A stretch of DNA of 64,000 bases, from NCBI GenBank assembly GCA_022316685.1, contig JAKJHU010001083.1:29901-93900 (forward strand), given 5' to 3'. Below the pieces are notes generated by a model. It was not told where the DNA came from, made no database searches, and worked only from the letters and a program-made list of their open reading frames with translations. Both the position numbers and the translations under genes were made by a program. Shown here piece by piece: positions 23,026 through 26,000 of the stretch (position 1 is the stretch's first letter; each line of letters starts with the position of its first letter). Origin of the DNA: Progne subis subis (lineage: Eukaryota > Chordata > Aves > Passeriformes > Hirundinidae).

Positions 23026-26000
23026 TTAAAACACTCCGGGCAGGAGGCGGTAGGGCACTGCAGCGGTGTAGTGCTTCCAGTCCTTCCCATACTTGCTGCT
23101 ACAGTGTCACTGAGACACACAAAGCAGTCACACGCAGACAAATATTTTGCAAAGCAGAGGTTCTTCCAGATCCCAGCTCCTGCTGAGAGAGCGGAGAGAG
23201 GAGGAAGAAGAGCCTCTTTGTTTATTCTTTACTTTTTATACATTTGTGGGTCTGGCAGAAGATTGGCTTTTTGGGGTTTCCACCCCTCAGCCTCAGTGGC
23301 CAGACCAACTGTCAGTTACAGTTGTTTTTCAGGTTAGAAATATGCAAACAAAGGACAAAGAATGAAAAACAAAGCATTTGTTTATGATACATCTGTGGGA
23401 AAGGTAGAAAACTGCTCTAATATTGTACAGTAACTAAAAGATCTGACTCCATTATGAAATTCAAAAGGCTAAATAAACAACTCAGAAAAACCAGAGTAAC
23501 AGCTACAGCGGTGCTCGTCCCTAATGCAGCGGTGGGTGAGCAGAATGGTCATGTAAATGATGTAGAAGTAAGGCAGGATGTGCTCAAAGCCACAAGCCAG
23601 GCAGTAGGCCAGCGAGCCCATCAGGTCTCCCGTGTAGTTGAATTGACGTGCCCAGCCCCAAAATCCAGAGGTCATCAGCTTGCTGTAGCACTTGATGCCA
23701 TCCACGAATGTGTAGGAGCACTCAATGTACTCCGGCCTCTCTCCCCAGATCCTGCAGTTGCCATTGGTGCAACGGAAGAGATCCTTTTGGTGGTTGGTCA
23801 CTCTGAAGATGTAATAGCCCAGCAAGCCCAAGATCAAGACCCCTATGGCGTGAGCTGTGTGCAGCTGGACGGGATGGTAAACCAAATACAGACCCTGGGG
23901 AGCACAGAAACAATCAGCCATTCGCTTCCAACACAGGCTAGGCATGCCTTGTCAATTTCCAAAGTCAATTCCTTGACTACAGTGACAGAGCACAACAGAG
24001 CAGAAGAAGCAGTAGAAAAATCCACTGCAATAGTGAAACTGCCCCAAACTTTCAGAAGACTCTGCATGCTAGAGTTTCCTTCTCTCTTTCTCCAACACTG
24101 CACCTCTTTGTGAAACAAGAAGGAGGCAAACTGGACAGAAGGAAAAACCCGAGGAACAAAACCCAAACAAACCACCACTAACCAAAAGACCCTCAACAGG
24201 CAGTTTCCTTAAAGGAAACTGAAAGGCTTTAGAAAAGTATGCAGACACAATGGACAGTGACAGAAAGAGGCACAGAAGATGGGCAGGAGAGGAAAGAATG
24301 TCAAATCCATGCAGGGACAGGAAGCCTTCCTACAAGAGAATTGTTACAGAGAATGTTGCAATACTTTCTCAACAGTCCAGCTACATAGAAACATATAAGG
24401 TAGAAATCAGACTGCTAGAATGTTTCTGGAAAGTTTCATTCTTGTTAGCCCAAATACACAGTGTACACACTCTTACCTGCAAAGTATAGAGGTGAGGCAA
24501 CCAAACACAGTCTCCCCAGCCCAAATACCATCCAAAATGATCATGGCAGATATCAATGGTTTTCAAGTACCAGGCTTCATTCCAGAAGAAGTCCAGAACA
24601 TAAATATCCTGCAAGAGAATAATTTCACATTAATAACAGAGCATTGTCACCAGTTACCCTGTTTAACAGCATCAGCTTAATGTCTGTGCTGCCTTGTGAT
24701 GTGGTCTCAAAATTCCTCGGTGTTTTCATGTTAGCACTTCAAAACCAGACATTTCTGAACACAGTTAAGAAGAACTACCACGGAAATACAACCTACTTGG
24801 GTACACAACATCTATCTCTCTGGACAGATAAAGCAAGAACAGGATGACGCAGGCAAGCGTACAGGTCAAGGACAAACACTTGGGAAGTGAACTCACAACT
24901 GAGCACCCTGATCTTCCTCAGCTTAGAGTCACGGGCTTACAAAGAAGGGGGACAGAGATTCTGTTGAGCAGGCTTCCATTTACACAGATCAGGGAATAAA
25001 GCCAAGGAAGTCCCATCACTGAATGAGCTTGTTTCAGGACAGGAAAAAATGCGTCTGTTTCATTTCCTTGGAAGGAGTTTTTTTCCTATTTTCATACTAG
25101 CTCATTTCCAAACTCGTTTCTTAATTTCCCCCTTGGAATTTACCTGGAGGACATTGACAAGGATCATGGAGTTTGTCACTTCACCGTAGAGCTCCTGTTG
25201 TTTGGCAGCAAAGGAAAGGTTGATCAGAGTCCAGGCCACAATCCCAGGGCGCCCATTGAAGAACAGCTTGAAATCAAACCACTTCCCTATTCGAGGGTTA
25301 AATTCAATCCCCATCATGTAGTCATAAAAGAAGTTTCCAGTGAACTTGCTGTAAAACATAAAAAAACATTAAAAAAAAAAAAAAATTAAAAATGTACAGG
25401 GTTATGCACAAATACAGGTAATTGCTACTCTGACTACAGAATTCAGATTCATTTGATGTAGCAATAATAAAAATCAGAAAACCACATAACACTGTACAAG
25501 ATAACACAAATTTACCCCACTGAAGTATTACATTAATACTCATAAATTGTAGGATTTCAGAGGTGCCTGAGTTTAGGATGGGTGTTTCTGTGACACTGAG
25601 GCTGCCAGTCCCATGATGTGCAGCAGGAAACACAGGGAATGGTGCTGGTGAAGCAAAGAACCACTGCCATACACTGGCCTAGCTCTCTGTGCCAGTGAAA
25701 TACACTCTGTTATACAGTTTGTATATCCCATTTTTATTTAACTGCTTTAATCTCTGATATCTAGCATTCTCTCATACCTAAAATTCACATACCAGTCTTT
25801 GGCATTGGTAGGGAACAAGTAGCCTTTAATCATGGCAAAGGTGGACACTGCATATCCCCCAAGATATTGGCACACCACAGCAGAGGAATCCAGTCGTCAA
25901 AAATGATGGTAGGTGAGAAAAAGTGCAAGCAAGAAGCATTTGCAAACCAAAGCACGTGGGTAATGATCCAGGCCTGAAGTCCATCGATTTCATATTTATT

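Follow-up and report, generated by a model that had tools for sequence, protein, structure and literature searches.

A solo retroviral LTR in the last coding exon of a probable dead duplicate of DHCR7 in a swallow-like songbird genome

A DHCR7 copy whose last coding exon is interrupted by a solo long terminal repeat (LTR) lies in the 64,000-base stretch of DNA analysed here, which we refer to as the window. The reading we favour, at a probability of about 0.8, is that this copy is an intron-containing duplicate made at the DNA level, now a pseudogene, which lies in W-like DNA rich in retroviruses in the genome of a swallow or a related songbird, and that the LTR was left by insertion of a beta-type element followed by recombination. 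If the window does hold a dead duplicate, the LTR therefore need not harm the bird.

The LTR insertion and the C-terminus that it displaces

The insert and its immediate surroundings in the exon, together with its relatives in the window, are as follows.

23508-23502, minus strand: target-site duplication CTGTAGC, upstream copy (gctacag on the plus strand)
23501-23105, minus strand: solo LTR, 397 bp, TG...CA ends, within the last DHCR7 coding exon
23471-23469, minus strand: LTR-encoded stop codon TAG, after ten LTR-encoded residues
23104-23098, minus strand: target-site duplication CTGTAGC, downstream copy (gctacag on the plus strand)
23097-23026, minus strand: displaced native C-terminus, 23 residues SKYG...PGVF plus TAA (23028-23026), intact
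28560-33833, minus strand: truncated beta-type provirus of the same LTR family, low end approximate
47197-47484, plus strand: third LTR of the family, a partial match in the direction opposite to the insert

On the minus strand the insert starts with TGTTACTCTGGT and ends with GTCTCAGTGACA, its borders being TGTTAC/GTGACA. Within the window, blastn finds two relatives: a 93% relative at 33833-33434 that covers 23502-23102 and agrees with both borders to within 3 bases, and an 86% relative at 47197-47484 that covers 23502-23210 and supports the upstream border only. These sister LTRs rule out a chance similarity and, with the borders, bear out the original prediction that an LTR of 397 bp interrupts the last DHCR7 coding exon with the same 7 bases on either side. 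Two fixed borders would share 7 bases by chance with a probability of about 6e-5. The length of the duplication can be read as either 6 or 7 bases, because a C directly precedes TGTTAC in all three LTR copies; a 6-base duplication would, we assume, fit a beta-type element. There are no viral genes between the borders, and the one-LTR length of the insert, together with the duplication, rules out both a full provirus and a random assembly join. An AATAAA begins at 23226 and a TATAAA at 23240, both in the sense direction of DHCR7, as had been proposed for the former.

The 93% relative reveals the source of the insert. It is the 5' LTR of the provirus at 28560-33833 and is followed by frames that Pfam identifies, in order, as gag p24, dUTPase and protease, reverse transcriptase (RT) and RT thumb, which we take to be the betaretrovirus gene order; because this sister LTR precedes gag, pro and pol frames, the insert is an endogenous retrovirus LTR. 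By eye, what looks like a primer-binding site follows directly on the LTR at 33833-33434. The provirus ends within the polymerase region near 28.56 kb (approximately, this being the end of the last viral frame), about 80 bases ahead of the DHCR7 start codon, so there is no room for the remainder of the virus on that side. No 5' exon or promoter of DHCR7 was recognised around 28482-28700.

The consequences for the protein are as originally described. The DHCR7 frame reads to HRCS and then through the ten LTR-encoded residues to the stop, in place of the 23 native ones; with the flanks fused so that a single copy of the 7 bases remains, the last exon continues in frame to the TAA at 23028-23026. 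The removed stretch aligns with the end of the sterol reductase structure 4quv and much of it is strongly conserved, with K454, Y455, W459, Y462, V466 and P472 each found in 153-157 of 159 family proteins (from a set of 218, taking lengths of 400 residues or more, less P0001, P0017, P0038, P0048 and P0049). It is thus very likely that the LTR would have killed this DHCR7 copy had the copy been functional. We regard as highly improbable a functional locus in which the mRNA splices out the LTR or the ten LTR-encoded residues serve as a new C-terminus: the frame does extend ten codons into the LTR, but the end that is lost is conserved, a frameshift in coding exon 4 terminates the protein upstream, and three motifs of the LTR-encoded tail are found in none of the 309 proteins compared. 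Nor does a protein search with the LTR-encoded tail show any annotated protein of the same species among the matches listed (best 120 of 394).

Exon structure, a second lesion and protein change

The seven coding exons of the DHCR7 copy run along the minus strand from 28482 to 23026.

28482-28385, minus strand: coding exon 1, with start ATG and GT/AG intron ends
27495-27273, minus strand: coding exon 2, GT/AG intron ends
26752-26662, minus strand: coding exon 3, GT/AG intron ends
26008-25793, minus strand: coding exon 4, frameshifted, GT/AG intron ends
25860-25856, minus strand: run of five G in coding exon 4 where the frame needs three, a +2 frameshift
25832-25830, minus strand: premature stop TGA that follows from the frameshift, seen in the reading frames
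25348-25144, minus strand: coding exon 5, GT/AG intron ends, Pfam match
24608-24477, minus strand: coding exon 6, GT/AG intron ends
23894-23502, minus strand: coding exon 7 (last), the part upstream of the LTR, including one copy of the duplication; PF01222, E 1.2e-37

The six introns have GT/AG at all 12 of their ends, and because the introns are kept this is not a processed copy. The two-base expansion of the G-run is a second lesion that the original prediction did not include, and leaves just 196 of the 475 DHCR7 residues. Provided that the sequence is right, this frameshift would by itself disable the protein whatever the LTR does; the two extra bases could stem from an assembly error. 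Skipping of coding exon 4 is ruled out as a rescue: the exon has different phases on its two sides, and its omission would shift the frame. We favour a pseudogene because this frameshift and stop stand apart from the LTR; counting against that reading, the coding exons are open and the intron ends canonical bar the two lesions.

Changes in the protein are also unevenly distributed. The nearest protein, among the matches listed (best 120 of 813), is P0001 of Hirundo rustica at 96% identity, from which the window copy differs at 18 positions. With a turtle protein (P0002) as outgroup, 15 of these changes fall on the window branch, none on the Hirundo branch, and three are undecided (binomial p 6e-5); with a jay protein (P0003) the division is 12 window to three Hirundo changes over 431 columns (binomial p 0.035). 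A62 is common to the window copy and Hirundo, the residue being D in the jay and in nearly all other sequences.

The positions of the changes were related to column conservation among 46 reference proteins, which are those of at least 465 residues among the first 61 of the best 120 of 813 matches; for the column test, P0001, P0017, P0038, P0048 and P0049 were dropped (the last four being fused or odd), giving 41 rows. The window changes are spread over columns regardless of how conserved these are (p 0.14 relative to all columns), unlike the 19 jay-side differences, which keep away from conserved positions (p 1.3e-4); the direct contrast, that window changes lie on more conserved columns than jay-side ones, is not significant (p 0.21). 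Three of 183 near-invariant columns (at least 97% invariant) are changed in the window copy (N146D, S384F and H405Q), a count not distinctive by itself, since at least three such columns are changed in 14 of the 46 references in a leave-one-out comparison. At H405 the 159 family proteins have H in 150 and Q in five. The branch counts, with partial support from the column tests, suggest that constraint on the protein has been relaxed in the window copy.

Retroviral surroundings and chromosomal location

Retroviral intervals make up 33,799 of the 64,000 bases, or 53% of the window, and 51% if the weakest stretch (58003-58989) is left out; the limits of these intervals were drawn manually on the basis of LTR pairs, nucleotide matches and Pfam domains, with little or no Pfam support for 58003-58989. 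A plus strand provirus at 15607-22007, about 1 kb beyond DHCR7, has LTRs at 15607-16269 and 21346-22007 that are 96.4% alike. Its flanks may be rearranged, because a target-site duplication was looked for around it and not found; a tandem repeat of about 27 bases (17117-17380) lies in its long open frame at 16324-18276. Another element, with gag p24 at 50771-51856, has an envelope frame (55829-56734) that matches both Avian_gp85 and TLV_coat, and is possibly a mosaic, judging from these matches. A C2H2 zinc-finger frame (41595-42488) is situated between retroviral blocks, and a protein-kinase frame at 2691-3503 (Pkinase E 4.6e-26) looks, to our eye, PIM1-like. PIM1 is described as a multicopy gene in birds (blue tit paper, PMC10172847).

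In vertebrates generally, DHCR7 and NADSYN1 are neighbours. No NADSYN1 match is present in the 35 kb upstream of DHCR7 or elsewhere in the window (the lowest E is 0.75), with a human query sequence that aligns over all 706 residues to PDB 6ofb. The original prediction took the LTR to have damaged an essential gene, and a possible form of this is that the window carries the only or main DHCR7 of the bird, hit by the LTR in the sequenced individual as a damaging and perhaps heterozygous allele, with the G-run an assembly error. The coding exons, open save for one frameshift, and the canonical ends of all six introns are what such a locus would have, but we consider it very unlikely: the exon 4 frameshift is independent of the LTR, lineage-specific changes number 15 versus none, NADSYN1 is unmatched over the range just given, and retroviral sequence takes up about half of the window. 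The claim of damage to an essential gene is thus not supported, and a working DHCR7 is likely to be present elsewhere in the genome, the exception that the original prediction itself allowed for.

Where the sex chromosomes of birds are strongly differentiated, the density of transposable elements exceeds 55% on the W, compared with less than 10% genome-wide (PMC8310711). By analogy, the retrovirus density of the window suggests a W location, and a female-limited or other heterochromatic location would suit the DHCR7 copy. The gag frame of the neighbouring provirus has 91 protein matches, of which 89 are from Hirundo rustica rustica and one each from Prinia and Agelaius, a tally that is biased in that scoring was limited to the 7,992 candidates with most words in common and annotations of other species may omit retroviral frames. 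Twenty-eight of the 91 are on one 22.5-Mb contig. From these gag matches and the A62 shared with Hirundo, the host is probably a swallow or a near relative of swallows. The published barn-swallow assembly is from a female (PMC6324554), and our guess is that the gag-matching Hirundo proteins belong to that assembly and that the 22.5-Mb contig might be W.

A different W-linked origin is that the copy is a neo-W gametolog: part of chromosome 5 (where we take DHCR7 to reside) would have become sex-linked, with its W copy now in decay. The retrovirus density would fit a W, and a chromosome 5 stratum is sex-linked in the two Alauda larks, of the family group Sylvioidea, but 95.4-96.2% of the W genes in that stratum are still present (PMC11255319). 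Moreover, 89 of the 91 gag matches are from a swallow, although annotated lark retroviruses may be missing from the database, and no chromosome 5 gene besides DHCR7 was recognised by the NADSYN1 search and inspection of reading frames by eye. We therefore think this origin improbable.

A scenario for the decay of the copy and comparison with known systems

A plausible scenario for the dead duplicate is that a beta-type endogenous retrovirus integrated into the last DHCR7 exon and duplicated its target, and that recombination between the two LTRs then removed the interior to give a solo LTR with its duplication, as the anatomy of solo LTRs would imply; this route is described in PMC8310711. The exon 4 frameshift would be a lesion separate from the LTR insertion. 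The copy was most likely free to decay because a functional DHCR7 presumably remains elsewhere, and under the best explanation it is young. More tentatively, an autosomal DHCR7 may have been copied onto the W of swallows, which is limited to females, or onto their germline-restricted chromosome, and dismantled there by retroviruses, although we would not put this at even odds.

Several consequences follow for the interpretation of genome assemblies. A seeming knock-out of an essential sterol gene can turn out to be a spare copy in decay, and a false loss would be reported by any annotation pipeline or variant study that took the window copy for the genuine DHCR7. Should the copy be W-linked, it would provide an example of an autosomal gene that entered female-limited DNA rich in endogenous retroviruses and is dying there. 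Among the literature matches listed, there is no report of a DHCR7 copy on the W or the germline-restricted chromosome, with a retroviral LTR, or as a pseudogene in birds, and a term search in the sand martin, blue tit germline-chromosome and house martin papers did not return the name DHCR7.

The window copy resembles DHCR7, of the ERG4/ERG24 sterol reductases (PF01222), in its seven coding exons and its close identity to the Hirundo protein, and departs from a functional DHCR7 in having two disabling lesions. With its frameshift, accelerated amino acid change and surroundings dense in endogenous retroviruses, it is similar to intron-containing pseudogenes in retrovirus-rich sex-limited DNA. 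The insert in turn is like the beta-type solo LTRs of birds (we take the beta-type endogenous retroviruses of birds to be ERVK-like), having TG...CA ends, a short duplication, and a sister LTR joined to gag p24, dUTPase/protease and RT. It is unlike the usual avian beta-type solo LTR in being within a coding exon, and of a gene copy with another disabling lesion. A solo LTR in a duplicated pseudogene within DNA rich in endogenous retroviruses is thus of a known kind, of which this is a new instance.
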